Shown here: positions 3,342 to 21,680 of the stretch, piece after piece
Layout: each line of letters opens with the position of its first letter
Numbering within the stretch: the first letter of the stretch is position 1
From: Bacteroidia bacterium
Lineage (GTDB): Bacteria; Bacteroidota; Bacteroidia; CAIKAF01
Direction: 5' to 3'
Length of the DNA: 38,349 nt
NCBI GenBank assembly: GCA_016742095.1
Contig: JACVCJ010000034.1
Location: 1 to 38,349 of the forward strand
Position numbers and translations under genes: made by a program
Notes under the pieces: generated by a model
Seen by the model: only the letters and a program-made list of their open reading frames with translations
Databases searched by the model: none
Told to the model about the DNA's origin: nothing

Positions 3342-4520
3342 TTATTTAATACGTTTTTCGAAATCTTCGATCATTTTATTCAGTTGCAGCAGTTCCTTTT
3401 CGGTAATGCTGTTGGCAACAAGATAACTGTGCAGGGTAGCGGTAAGTTTTTTGGCCTCGTTCTCTGATACGTCGCTGCGTTGCGCCAGGCTGCGGGCAAA
3501 ATTCCCGTCGAGCTTTTCGGTGCCCAGGTTGTAGCGCAGGCGTATCTTTTCCAGGAAAAAGTTGATCTTTTTACGGGCCAGGTTCAGGTGGTCCTTCTGG
3601 TTAAAATACACACGGCCCACGGTTTCCGTAAATTCTAGGGTGGTATTGGTGTGTGGTTTTATCACGGGGATCACGCGCTGCATCCGTTTCGACATGAACA
3701 GGATATACAGCAGTATGAGGCCCAGCATCAGGAACCAGGCCGTTTTAAACCCGGGGTGCGAAAGCAGTACGCGGATGGGCGTCATGGGCTCGTCGCGGCC
3801 CACCTTGTAAAATTCGTCCCAGAGGGTAGGCTGCTTCGGCAGAAAGGAAAAGCTTTTTTCTACAAAATCCACATTATTATCGCGCAGCAGGTAATAATTC
3901 GTGAAAAGAAAAGGCGTGGTGTTCAGTATGATGCGTCCCTTGTGCCTCGGTATCAGAACTGTAACGGGTTCGTTGTTCATATTGCGGGCCAGCACACTGC
4001 AGCCCTCCGGAATGCTGTCGAAACTGGCCACCGGGTCCAGACCCAGCTGTGTGTAGGGGGTAAGGGCTTTCAGGGAACCGTCTGTGAAATTAACGCGGTG
4101 CGTGGCGCTGGTTTCGCTGACATCGGCATGGGTAGACAGGCCCAGGGTATCTTCCAGCAGCTGCCCGAAATACAGCTCCGAAATGAACAGGGTACCCCCG
4201 GCGCGGGTAATACGCTCCATGGCTTCAAAATCCCTTTCGGAAGGCAGGGTGTGCCGCAGTCCGATCATAATATAATTGATGCTGCGGGTAGAATCGAAAT
4301 GCGTTTCGGAGGGCGGTACACGGGTAAATTCGGCAGATGCTTCACCGAAATACCCCGGTAGCAGACTGTACAGGGCTTTGCCGCCGAAAGGCCGGCTGTC
4401 GTTCTTGCTCCAGCTCGGTGTCCAGTCCGTGGGTTTGGGCTGCAGTGCGTATAAGACACACACTACGGCCAGCAGGATCAGGGCCGGTATGTAAAAGGGT
4501 ATGCGTTTTTTTTCACTCAT
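3342..4520 (-). CDS. DUF4350 domain membrane protein
   Basis: 392 residues. An N-terminal membrane helix (about residues 8-27) is followed by a large, presumably periplasmic, domain with a Rossmann/ThuA-like feel (strand-Gly turns such as INYIMIGLRHTLP and GGTLFISELYF). A second helix near residues 259-277 (TAWFLMLGLILLYILFM) leads to a cytoplasmic tail rich in charged helices. This is the DUF4350 architecture found between DUF4129 and MoxR genes. Its start overlaps the end of the DUF4129 gene by four bases (ATGA-type), so translational coupling is likely. Biochemical function unknown. Confidence 0.8.
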   Translation of the reverse strand: MSEKKRIPFYIPALILLAVVCVLYALQPKPTDWTPSWSKNDSRPFGGKALYSLLPGYFGEASAEFTRVPPSETHFDSTRSINYIMIGLRHTLPSERDFEAMERITRAGGTLFISELYFGQLLEDTLGLSTHADVSETSATHRVNFTDGSLKALTPYTQLGLDPVASFDSIPEGCSVLARNMNNEPVTVLIPRHKGRIILNTTPFLFTNYYLLRDNNVDFVEKSFSFLPKQPTLWDEFYKVGRDEPMTPIRVLLSHPGFKTAWFLMLGLILLYILFMSKRMQRVIPVIKPHTNTTLEFTETVGRVYFNQKDHLNLARKKINFFLEKIRLRYNLGTEKLDGNFARSLAQRSDVSENEAKKLTATLHSYLVANSITEKELLQLNKMIEDFEKRIK

Positions 4521-5254
4521 GCCGTTACCTCCCTGTATGCCTGGTTAAATGTTTCAAAATCCTTTGCCAGTTCCCGGTATTCCTCCTCGTTCAGCTGCCG
4601 GTAGCCGTACCATACAAATTCATAGGCCGTGGCCAGGTAATCGAAGGCCTGGTAGTCGCTGCGGCCGCGCATCATATTGCGGAAATCGCTGTTGGTACGC
4701 TCAATGGTCCAGTAGATCACGTGGTGGTCCGAAAGCAGTTTCAGGCTGCGCAGGTATTGCAGGCGTATAGCCTTGCGGTAGTTGCCCTCGCTTACGGCCT
4801 TCTGTATCTCATCTATATACTCAATATTGTGTATGTCTTCTTCCAGGATCTCGTATTCGGGCTTTTTTACGCGTGCCCCGCGGCGGGTGAACAGGGAGCG
4901 GAAATCGCTGCGTAACATCAGCCACACCACCAGCGCCACAAAAAGTACAATGATCAGGAAGATGACAAAATACCCGAATCCTTTCATCCAGTCCGTATCG
5001 GCATTGCGCATAAAATCGAGTTCTCCGAATATGCCGCGCAGCCACTCGCGGATCTTGTCCATGAGCGTTTCTACCTTCTCGCGGTTCTCGGGGTAGCGGA
5101 ATTCCCGGCTGTCCTGTATATCGAAGAACTGCTCCCGGTCAAAACGGCGTACCTCCGAAACCGAAGAATCGGCCAGGGCCGCCGCAGCTGAAGGCATTGC
5201 GCACAGCCAGGCCAGCCACAGGAAAAATATATACCGGAACTGCTTCAAGGTCAT
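4517..5254 (-). CDS. DUF4129 domain membrane protein
   Basis: 245 residues. A signal-peptide-like N-terminus (to about residue 25, ending PSAAAALADS), a periplasmic linker, a strong membrane helix near residues 92-115 (FGYFVIFLIIVLFVALVVWL) and a C-terminal cytoplasmic helical domain (about 150-240) with the DUF4129 hallmarks: IQKAVSEGNYRKAIRLQYLR and YEFVWYGYRQLNEEEY. In other bacteria DUF4129 is often fused to transglutaminase-like proteins beside MoxR/DUF58. Here it is a stand-alone member of the same operon, overlapping both neighbours. Function unknown. Confidence 0.8.
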   Translation of the reverse strand: MTLKQFRYIFFLWLAWLCAMPSAAAALADSSVSEVRRFDREQFFDIQDSREFRYPENREKVETLMDKIREWLRGIFGELDFMRNADTDWMKGFGYFVIFLIIVLFVALVVWLMLRSDFRSLFTRRGARVKKPEYEILEEDIHNIEYIDEIQKAVSEGNYRKAIRLQYLRSLKLLSDHHVIYWTIERTNSDFRNMMRGRSDYQAFDYLATAYEFVWYGYRQLNEEEYRELAKDFETFNQAYREVTA

Positions 5255-19344: not shown

Positions 19345-19375
19345 CAAAGTTAAGAAAGCGTGCAGAGCTTTGCAA
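19345..19375 (-). promoter_or_regulatory. promoter of the monooxygenase-apt unit
   Basis: On the minus strand, TTG at 19375-19373, then 20 bases, then TAACTTTG at 19352-19345. Both Bacteroidota elements (-33 TTG and -7 TAnnTTTG) are present with good spacing, about 63 bases before the start codon. The -33 end touches the outer border of the hairpin-repeat island (19374), so the island begins exactly where this promoter ends. Confidence 0.5.
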
Positions 19376-19420
19376 TTAAAAAACAAGCGTACGTACCTGT
19401 ATAAAGAACGCTTAAACGTT
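19374..19420. repeat. outer direct repeat of the RAYT island, left copy
   Basis: A 47-base sequence beginning AATTAAAAAACAAGCG and ending CTTAAACGTT. A second copy at 20786-20832 has the same length with four differences. Both copies run straight into a type A hairpin. A shorter third piece (GTACCTGTATAAAGAACG) closes the island at 20927-20944. Confidence 0.8.
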
Positions 19421-19806
19421 CGCCGGAGTCGCTCGGAGAGGACTACGGCGTTTTCTCAGAAGTAAGTATTCAAGTGTGTTTATCGTCTGAGTCCCTTTCA
19501 GGCGACTCAGACGAAGCGTCGTAGCGGGTCGTATAGTTTTCGAAGCGCCCGTCGGAGTCGCTCGGAGAGGACTACGGCGTTTTTCAAAGTATGCAGAGTG
19601 TTCAATGTCTGAGTCCCTTCCAGGCGACTCAGACAGAGCGTTATAATAGGCTGTGTAGTTTCGAAATGCTCGCCGGAGTCGCTCGGAGAGGACTACGGCG
19701 TTTTTCAAAGTATGCAGGAGTGTTCAATGTTTGAATCCCTTGCAGGCGACTCAGACGAGTGCGGTAGCGAGTCGTATAGTTTTCGAAATGCTCGCCGGAG
19801 TCGCTC
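19421..19806. repeat. left REP/BIME hairpin array
   Basis: Alternating 30-nt imperfect palindromes. Type A copies are at 19421-19450, 19550-19579 and 19671-19700, plus a half copy at 19793-19806 cut off 17 bases from the transposase stop codon. Type A has arm CGCCGGAGTC, centre GCTCGGAGAG and arm GACTACGGCG (one mismatched pair; the centre adds a 3-bp CTC/GAG stem). Type B copies are at 19484-19513, 19606-19635 and 19728-19757, with arms GTCTGAGTC and GACTCAGAC around CCTTTCAGGC or variants; the third B copy has two changes in its left arm. A-to-A spacing is 121-129 bases. The reverse complement of B aligns to A at 20 of 30 positions with no gaps. Confidence 0.9.
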
Positions 19807-19823
19807 AAAGAGATTCCACAAAT

Positions 19824-20387
19824 TCAGAGGCTTCTGTAACTTGTTAGTTGTATCGGCAATTCTTTATCAAGTTCATAAAAAGCGGCACTTGAGTGTTCAT
19901 ATAGACGATAATCATCAACGAGTTGCCATTTACCGGAAACAGGATTGTGATGTATGTAATCCAGTTTTTGTATCAGGAATTCTTCTGAAATACACACTTT
20001 ACAATTAAAAGAAGGGAAGAATATTTGGTGATTCTTATTCCTGTTCTGCTGATAATCAGGAACACTTTTCTGCAGGAAGGAAAGAAGAGAAAATTCTCTT
20101 TGTTCCTTAAGCCGTTTCACAATTTCATAAGCAAGGAAACGTTTGGCGTTGGATACGAGTTTAGCGAGATCAAGTTCAGGATTTTCTAAGTAAACTATAA
20201 AGTGTACGTGATTAGGCATGATAACATAGGCTATTATTTTGCAGCCCTTTCTGTTCCAGATGTTGAAGGTCTCATAAATGTTTGAATATGTATTCGTTTT
20301 TTGAATGAGGGCTAACCATTTGTAACATGTAAATGTACAGAAGTATATCCTGTTTGTGGAGGGTATATAAGATATTGGCATAGGCAT
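19824..20387 (-). CDS. REP-associated tyrosine transposase (RAYT, Y1/IS200-like)
   Basis: 187 residues from the ATG at 20385-20387; the family's first strand (RIYFCTFTCYKWLALI) starts a few residues in, so a longer in-frame start at 20426 is less likely. The HUH nuclease motif is AYVIMPNHVHFIVYL (His60, His62). The probable catalytic Tyr144 lies in QKLDYIHHNPVSGKW, followed by DDYRLYEHSSAAFY, the usual RAYT ending. These enzymes cut and join single-stranded DNA at REP hairpins and are thought to be domesticated single-copy relatives of IS200/IS605 transposases. The gene is visibly more AT-rich than its neighbours and is enclosed by REP-like arrays on both sides with no IS ends, which supports RAYT over a plain insertion sequence. 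Confidence 0.9.
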   Translation of the reverse strand: MPMPISYIPSTNRIYFCTFTCYKWLALIQKTNTYSNIYETFNIWNRKGCKIIAYVIMPNHVHFIVYLENPELDLAKLVSNAKRFLAYEIVKRLKEQREFSLLSFLQKSVPDYQQNRNKNHQIFFPSFNCKVCISEEFLIQKLDYIHHNPVSGKWQLVDDYRLYEHSSAAFYELDKELPIQLTSYRSL

Positions 20388-20431
20388 AAATATAATGAAA
20401 ATCGGACAAAAAAAGTAATGGTGCAAATGCC

Positions 20432-20906
20432 CGCCGGAGTCGCTCGGAGAGGACTACGGCGGTTTTCAAAGCATGTGTGTGTTTAACGTCTGAGTCCCTT
20501 GCAGGCGACTCAGACGGAGCATCGTAATAGGCTATGTAGTTTCGAAATGCTCGCCGGAGTCGCTCGGAGAGGACTACGGCGGTTTTCAAAGCATGTGTGT
20601 GTTTAACGTCTGAGTCCCTTGCAGGCGACTCAGACGGAGCGTTGTAATAGGCTGTGTAGTTTCGAAGCGCTCGCCGGAGTCGCTCGGAGAGGACTACGGC
20701 GTTTTCTCAAAAGCAAGTATTCAAGTGTGTTTATCGTCTGAGTTCCTTGCAGGCAGCTCAGACGAAGCGTCGTAGCGGATCGTATAATTAAAAAACAAGC
20801 GTACGTGCCTGTATAAAGGATGCTTAAACGCTCGCCGGAGTCGCTCGGAGAGGACTGCGGCGTTTTTCAAAGTATGCCGGTGAATCCCTTGCAGGCGACT
20901 CAGATG
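20432..20906. repeat. right REP/BIME hairpin array
   Basis: Type A hairpins are at 20432-20461, 20552-20581, 20672-20701 and 20833-20862 (the last with a G in the right arm). Type B hairpins are at 20487-20516, 20607-20636 and 20735-20764 (arms altered), with a truncated copy at about 20881-20906. The first two A-B units are tandem copies of exactly 120 bases, identical across hairpins and the A-B spacer and differing only in the B-A spacer. B-A spacers begin GAGCAT and end ATGCTC, so each B-A pair forms a longer inverted repeat. The 33-base spacer after the third A matches the one after the first A of the left array. Confidence 0.9.
20786..20832. repeat. outer direct repeat of the RAYT island, right copy
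   Basis: 47 bases, four differences from 19374-19420, in direct orientation, and likewise followed at once by a type A hairpin. With the hairpin included, about 77 bases are shared with roughly five differences. This suggests that one edge of the island was copied to the other side of the transposase gene. Confidence 0.8.
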
Positions 20907-20945
20907 AGATGCCAAAATGTTCGTCCGTACCTGTATAAAGAACGT

Positions 20946-21680
20946 TTATTTATTCCGGATCCGTTCTGTCTTTTTCAGTTTGCCTTTGCTATACGTTTCA
21001 ATAAACTCCAGCCTGCCGTTTTTGTCGTACAGGTATACGGTACCGTCTCCGTCTTTCAGCGTACCTTTTTCCATGATCTCGCCGCTGGAATTAAAATTGG
21101 ACAGTACTGTCCAGGGGCGGTCGTTTTTGTATATACGTGTCGTCCAGATCATGCCGTTGCTGTGATACACTTCTATAATGCCTTCGCGCAGGTCGTGGAT
21201 ATAATGGCCCGTGAAGCTTCTTTTGCCGTCTTCGGTGTAGATCTGCTGTAATCCGTTGCGTTTCCCGTTGCTGTAGGAGCAAACGCAGGCGGGCTGCCCG
21301 TTCTTGTAATACGTTTTGTAGGGGCCGTCGTATTTTCGGCGTACAAAAGTGCCTTCGCTTCTTAGGCTGCCGTCGGGGTAGTAGGTACGAAAAGGGTTGC
21401 GCTGAGAATCCGTACGTTCCGGACTTAGCTCGTAATAACTGAAGTATTCCTTGTGATATTTGTAATAACGGGTGTAGAGCTCCACACCGGCGATGCGGGC
21501 CTCTTCGCTTTTCAGGCGTCCTTTTTTATCGTGGTAACGCAATAACAGTGTATCGTCTTTCCTTACAACTTCATCGGCAAACAGGAGTTCTTCCGTGTCG
21601 CTGCTGTCCTGTTGGGCAAAAGCTGCGGAGGCAAGGCTGAAAAAGAAGAGCAGAAAGAGGTATCGGAAGCGGTTCTTCAT
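20946..21680 (-). CDS. secreted MORN/YwqK-type repeat protein
   Basis: 244 residues with a signal peptide ending at AFA-Q. The mature part has at least six MORN-like hairpins with the Y-x-D/N-G pattern: RTYYPDGSLRSEGTF, KTYYKNGQPACVCSYSNGKRNG, QIYTEDGKRSFTGHYI, EVYHSNGMIWTTRIYKN, and YLYDKNGRLEFIETYSKGKLK. Databases often label this family 'YwqK antitoxin', but nothing here supports a toxin-antitoxin role: it is exported and has no partner gene. It likely forms an extended beta sheet in the periplasm or outer membrane. The stop codon abuts the RAYT island, so the island is immediately downstream of the transcript. Confidence 0.8.
   Translation of the reverse strand: MKNRFRYLFLLFFFSLASAAFAQQDSSDTEELLFADEVVRKDDTLLLRYHDKKGRLKSEEARIAGVELYTRYYKYHKEYFSYYELSPERTDSQRNPFRTYYPDGSLRSEGTFVRRKYDGPYKTYYKNGQPACVCSYSNGKRNGLQQIYTEDGKRSFTGHYIHDLREGIIEVYHSNGMIWTTRIYKNDRPWTVLSNFNSSGEIMEKGTLKDGDGTVYLYDKNGRLEFIETYSKGKLKKTERIRNK

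Follow-up and report, generated by a model that had tools for sequence, protein, structure and literature searches.

The recognition of REPs has been worked out for the GTAG-tagged REPs of gammaproteobacteria. RAYTs are defined by the inverted REPs with a GT(A/G)G head that flank their genes, and a third of them lie in BIMEs (Nunvar et al. 2010, PMC2817692). In Escherichia coli the TnpA-REP enzyme acts on a tag plus an irregular hairpin in single-stranded DNA (PMC8266576), which provides the model for the mechanism considered here. Two further kinds of system are known from the Bacteroidetes. The first is TnpA-REP subclass 2.6 (Quentin et al. 2018, PMC6006769), which corresponds to RAYT group 5 of Bertels et al. 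and whose genes, mostly from Bacteroidetes, are flanked by structures that lack GT[AG]G, were recognised by manual inspection and have copies in the genome; the text calls these structures atypical and weaker. The second consists of the CGTC-tagged REPs, inverted dimers of short palindromes with Bacteroidetes among their phyla and with no known transposase (Di Nocera et al. 2013, PMC3733652).

The locus described here lies in a window, the whole stretch of DNA that was analysed, which is the entire 38,349-bp contig C17 of a draft genome of 3.73 Mb in 70 contigs. It is very probably a REPtron, in which a single-copy RAYT/TnpA-REP-like gene is accompanied by its cognate REPs organised as a BIME. 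Judged by its text description, subclass 2.6 is the nearest described kind: it shares with our enzyme clade the phylum of the relatives, the NH[LIV]H motif together with a C-terminal SS, and flanking structures without GT[AG]G that recur elsewhere. The preliminary description had not recognised the hairpin as any described REP class; with the atypical non-GTAG structures reported for this subclass in 2018 (PMC6006769) it is not without precedent. What is given here is an explicit tag, bulge and covariation, whereas the text on subclass 2.6 offers only the words atypical and weaker.

Layout and structure of the hairpins

Around one HUH/Y1 gene (19824–20387, minus strand), assigned from Pfam, NCBIfam, a tree and a fold match to the crystal structure 4er8, there are fifteen hairpins, eight of type A and seven of type B, and each type includes one incomplete copy. 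The fifteen hairpins, their division between the types, their strict alternation and the single Y1 gene had all been counted in the preliminary description, and all are found. Type A is here called subtype P and lies on the plus strand of the window, type B is subtype Q and lies on the minus strand, and coordinates refer to the 34-nt tag plus hairpin as placed by a covariance model unless stated otherwise. In the left array P occupies 19417–19450, 19546–19579 and 19667–19700, followed by a truncated copy at 19790–19812, recognised from the sequence and repeat family D5, that ends about 11 bp from the RAYT stop codon; the interleaved Q copies are at 19484–19517, 19606–19639 and 19728–19761, the last with a partly decayed stem (E 0.013). 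In the right array P is found at 20428–20461, adjoining the 5' end of the gene, and at 20548–20581, 20668–20701 and 20829–20862, with Q at 20487–20520, 20607–20640, 20735–20768 (upper stem altered, not among the covariance-model matches) and 20877–20910 (stem damaged on one side). The order P+ Q- is kept without exception and the spacing is mostly 59–67 nt, so that the REPs are regularly spaced in alternating orientation as in a BIME. Two tandem 120-bp P-Q units on the plus strand (20425–20664, repeat family D4), BIME-like in themselves, are 97% identical, and the outer edge sequence of the left array (19374–19454, plus strand, repeat families D2 and D8) recurs in the right array at 20786–20866 (94%) and partly at 20922–20948.

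The relation between the two subtypes becomes apparent when each is read with its tag first. Q, when read on its other strand, is CGTCTGAGTCGCCTGCAAGGGACTCAGACG; P is CGCCGGAGTCGCTCGGAGAGGACTACGGCG, and in this direction both contain AGTC-G-CYY-GNA-RRG-GACT within different lower stems. Because of this shared core the A/B alternation is an alternation of orientation, and the array is BIME-like since A and B are one palindrome in opposite orientations; the earlier separation into two hairpin types thus gives way to a single REP class. The architecture consists of a tag, an outer stem ending in GTC, one bulged base, a 3-bp stem, a 3-nt loop and the mirror half, with the bulge and the loop reproduced by DNA folding (single-strand z-scores of -2.1 to -6.0 for the window hairpins). 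At the top of the lower stem P retains a mismatch or G.T while Q is fully paired. The 5' tags in the window are GCTC, GCCC, GTTC, GCTT and GCTC(C), which can be summarised as GCYC-like, and the bulged base is G in the window and T in the relatives.

How does this hairpin compare with the established ones? Neither the window nor its relatives carry GT[AG]G directly 5' of the hairpin, as a canonical GTAG REP does. The likeness to the E. coli REPtron (RayT/YafM, subclass 2.2; 4er8) lies in a single-copy enzyme that is also the best fold match, in a tag 5' of an irregular hairpin, and in paired subtypes that alternate in inverted orientation, the Y and Z REPs of BIMEs being comparable to P and Q. 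The E. coli system differs in its GTAG tag and two-base mismatch, here replaced by a GTCCC- or GCYC-like tag and one bulged base, and in having hundreds of dispersed copies where the present genome has about 31, and sequence identity between the two enzymes is very low. Q begins CGTCTG and so recalls the CGTC-tagged REPs (PMC3733652), but its CGTC is paired within the stem, P has no CGTC, and the layout of loop and stem is different; the unpaired CGTC end, 8–9 bp stem and 4–5 nt loop of that class are not found in the window hairpins. A search of Rfam with the hairpins gave no match above the cut-off, only a single chance match far below it.

Copies elsewhere in the genome

In the 3.7-Mb genome the covariance model has 31 matches, which lie on six contigs. 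Of these, 27 reach E <= 0.001, and this result, the folding z-scores of the window hairpins and the rarity of matches at that level in other genomes show that the pattern exceeds chance. Together with a core scan the model places copies, besides those of the window, on contigs C16, C30, C49, C62 and C67, as alternating arrays on C62 and C49, pairs on C30 and C49, and single copies on C16 and C67. The arrays of C62 (2050–2950) and C49 have no adjoining enzyme gene, since the only Y1 transposase gene found in the genome is that of the window. Copies within a locus are much alike (identity 0.92 for P and 0.84 for Q), and identity falls to 0.73 and 0.67, respectively, between loci. Each locus thus represents its own diverged subfamily, which is why an exact search of the genome for the A hairpin finds nothing outside the window and the core pattern or covariance model is required. 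As an observation apart, a decayed Q+ P- pair on C49 (4247–4335) lies in the C-terminal coding part of a 217-aa open reading frame (4195–4848, minus strand).

The preliminary description had proposed a search of the genome and its relatives for the hairpins, with their complete absence, combined with an enzyme that groups with mobile IS200 transposases, as the outcome that would count against a RAYT-REP pair; copies are present on five other contigs and in relatives, and the enzyme falls apart from IS200. Its further suggestion, that the RAYT locus is the source of REPs spread over the genome, fares less well: copies elsewhere do exist, but they come to about 31 matches on six contigs, fall into locus-specific subfamilies and have duplicated flanks. 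For instance, the repeat unit of the C62 array duplicates the 3' end of the gene next to it, which from its reading frame we take to be methionine aminopeptidase, a sign of tandem duplication as opposed to insertion. The locus-specific identity, the duplicated gene end and the 97% identical units together suggest that the arrays of this genome arose mainly by local tandem amplification.

These same features sustain the strongest competing account, in which the arrays are relics, once moved by a RAYT and now altered only by recombination or slippage, next to a gene that no longer acts on REPs. The small number of loci, their separate subfamilies, the near-identical tandem units, several decayed hairpins and the duplicated gene end at C62 all fit such an account, which we regard as possible though doubtful. 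It is opposed by the intact catalytic residues and open reading frame of the enzyme, and by compensating changes between loci that keep the stems paired. Relic-style amplification and enzyme action may, moreover, operate together.

The enzyme and the hairpins of its relatives

The RAYT gene encodes 187 aa from an ATG, or 200 aa from an alternative TTG at 20426. Its product carries the motifs NHVH and YIHHNP, matches Pfam Y1_Tnp at 2e-7, and matches NCBIfam REP_Tyr_transpos at 5.5e-20 (under the curated cut-off of that family) versus 1.8e-6 for IS200. There is one Y1_Tnp match in the genome, so the enzyme is single copy in a draft that is 98.6% complete. Across the clade alignment NHVH, Y144 and N148 are invariant, providing the HUH motif, the tyrosine and the metal-binding N/Q residue. 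Set against the subclass 2.6 consensus of NH[LIV]H, WQ, YIH[QN]NP and SS, the window enzyme keeps HUH, tyrosine, NP and SS but differs in two of the motifs, having F in place of W and YIHHNP in place of YIH[QN]NP, a comparison made with consensus motifs. Throughout the clade the WQ motif has lost its conserved W, a VFxPS-like motif standing instead, and the replaced residue falls in the region that reads GTAG in E. coli (PMC6006769).

The relationships of the protein rest on a scan of one genome per species over 84,980 species, which led to 80 named relatives, and on a maximum-likelihood tree that included E. coli RayT and five IS200 proteins. The window protein falls in a Bacteroidota clade of 26 rows (100/100), sister to Chryseotalea (97/89), and the IS200 proteins lie across a 100/99 branch; E. 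coli RayT forms a long branch whose exact position is unsure. A sequence search of the PDB with the enzyme gave nothing significant. AlphaFold modelling with a 71-sequence alignment reached a pLDDT of 94.6, as against 45 from the single sequence, and the best fold match of the model is 4er8, the E. coli RAYT-REP crystal structure (Foldseek E 2.2e-7; Z 14.6 over 143 residues versus about 10 for IS608 and ISDra2). The enzyme is therefore RAYT/TnpA-REP-like and not IS200, in agreement with the earlier assignment, for which grouping with mobile IS200 transposases had been named as part of the contrary result. The long residence implied by the term domesticated is not supported. The gene has a G+C of 0.356 in a window of 0.526, with third positions at 0.356 compared with 0.60–0.69 in its neighbours, and no close homologue of the enzyme is found in 15 genomes of the same family, features which together suggest horizontal acquisition. 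The flanking REP arrays are not AT-rich, with a G+C of about 0.50. A scan of viral contigs for the enzyme gave one weak partial match, and Ohtaekwangia koreensis has two RAYTs of the clade (C3:604112 and C6:596978) compared with the usual single copy.

Hairpins of related build accompany the clade enzymes. Within 500 bp of the gene, at least 14 of the 26 clade loci have tag-[6 bp]-GTC-T-CNN-(3-4 nt)-NNG-GAC-[6 bp]. The strict pattern is absent from the other 12, six of which show inverted repeats in which a similar pyrimidine tag is followed by a stem and GTCTC. No exact match to the window core is found in the relatives, the bulge there being T and not G. The five bases 5' of the stem (G/T-T-C-C-C) are conserved at 0.70–1.25 bits each, with at most 0.59 on the 3' flank, and this one-sided conservation fixes the tag-first strand independently of known REPs; the tag of the relatives is GTCCC-like. 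Almost all copies within 500 bp of the gene (35 of 36) are in plus orientation upstream or minus orientation downstream. In 34 aligned hairpins 95.1% of cells are paired, a figure that leans toward this structure because it guided the choice of alignment, and 8 of 12 pairs have changed on both sides. The covariation score is 0.572, whereas shuffled controls score 0.163 and slid controls no more than 0.159. On the tree the bulged-hairpin label is clustered, requiring 6 changes versus 13.2 when shuffled (0 of 500 as low).

Two side observations concern other repeats at RAYT loci. At L088 direct repeats of about 180 bp with a REP-like CTTCTCCGCAAAGTCTCC lie on both sides of the gene, within 600 bp. 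The RAYT flanks of L121 and L126, from Flavobacteriaceae, have another bulged hairpin of the GCAAA-T-GTC-TCCT-GAC-TTTGC type, which at L121 is present in several copies, inverted round the gene.

The hairpin class also follows the enzyme clade between genomes. At E <= 0.001 the covariance model matches 12 of 12 clade genomes and 4 of 99 other related genomes, a contrast to be read with the stricter filters applied to the 99 and with the fact that hairpins from 8 of the 12 went into training the model. Clade genomes have 2–49 matches each at E <= 0.1, of 100 genomes searched 95 are free of matches at E <= 0.001, and the 15 same-family genomes gave none. The four exceptional genomes have distant RAYTs only (E 1e-5 to 1e-25; clade members reach 1e-70 or better). 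In one of them, genome G029, which has no close RAYT, at least six bulged REPs carry TTCCC or TTCTC tags. Its copies resemble true members, some with a compensating change in the upper stem (AGUGUC...GGCACU), and the enzyme that served them may have been lost, leaving them as orphans.

A mobile IS200/IS605 insertion sequence beside which subterminal hairpins have multiplied is a highly improbable explanation. It would account for the IS200 Y1/HUH core of the enzyme, and the ends of IS200/IS605 elements are likewise bulged or mismatched hairpins (PMC8266576), with IS608 and ISDra2 sharing the HUH-Y1 core and the use of hairpins in single-stranded DNA. Yet these elements are usually multi-copy mobile units of the IS200 group, and the window enzyme is single copy with no close copy in the same family, is separated from IS200 proteins on the tree, and scores lower against IS608 and ISDra2 than against the RAYT structure; furthermore, an element of the IS200 type works with both of its ends on the same strand, while the hairpins of the relatives are inverted round the gene. 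Equally remote is the idea that the hairpins terminate transcription or stabilise mRNA and lie by chance next to a transposase gene with which they have no connection, as their largely intergenic position and stable stems might suggest, for across genera the class accompanies a single clade of enzymes, is inverted round the gene and has a one-sided tag, with no Rfam match above cut-off and, on inspection, no T-run after the stem; the hairpins could nonetheless have a secondary role in mRNA stability.

Mechanism and meaning

What remains favoured is a RAYT-REP pair whose hairpins form a class distinct from the GTAG type, a reading of the preliminary description that both the copies and the tree support. 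In such a pair the enzyme probably moves the hairpins of the arrays. The HUH/tyrosine enzyme would bind the folded tag plus hairpin in single-stranded DNA, such as that of the lagging-strand template, would cut at or beside the tag, and would mobilise inverted pairs of REPs with their tags outward, the pairs additionally multiplying in local tandem. Sequence conservation supports a part for tag, bulge and strand in recognition, and by analogy with the E. coli enzyme we infer binding and cutting, with P, Q or both as substrates. Joining, and any mobility in this genome, are likewise inferences.

A comparison between genomes starts from Mucilaginibacter gossypii (G109), in which copies are dispersed, many of them as plus-minus pairs with core starts 75–121 bp apart and outer ends GTCCC...GGGAC, beyond which the DNA differs. 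At a first orthologous intergenic site G109 has a pair and two congeners have only 28 and 37 bp; there are no clean edges, and several congeners hold a different palindrome there. At a second site the pair is present in G109 and G128 and absent from G124 and G142, with homology resuming a few bases from GGGAC on the right and less exactly on the left. Edges near the tags are compatible with a mobile pair delimited by its tags, although absence could also reflect deletion. Separately, a different palindromic pair, starting (A)ACGTCATTGCGAG and possibly a CGTC-type REP, is seen at six loci in the same intergenic Mucilaginibacter sites, and small palindromes unrelated to one another seem to accumulate at one of the sites.

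Our wider proposal, which we hold to be somewhat better than an even prospect, is that the RAYTs of this clade recognise not GTAG but a tag of the GTCCC type together with a bulge of one base in the stem, and that they actively mobilise tag-delimited inverted REP pairs, the window representing a further derived form with a G bulge, a GCYC-like tag and two obligately paired subtypes. A clade of Bacteroidota enzymes that lack the conserved W is here tied to a defined, covariation-supported class of REPs without GTAG. The recognition of tag and bulge, the coevolution of enzyme and REP, and the movement of REPs become testable in a second phylum, for which cultured Mucilaginibacter, with its dispersed and polymorphic copies, provides a ready test system.
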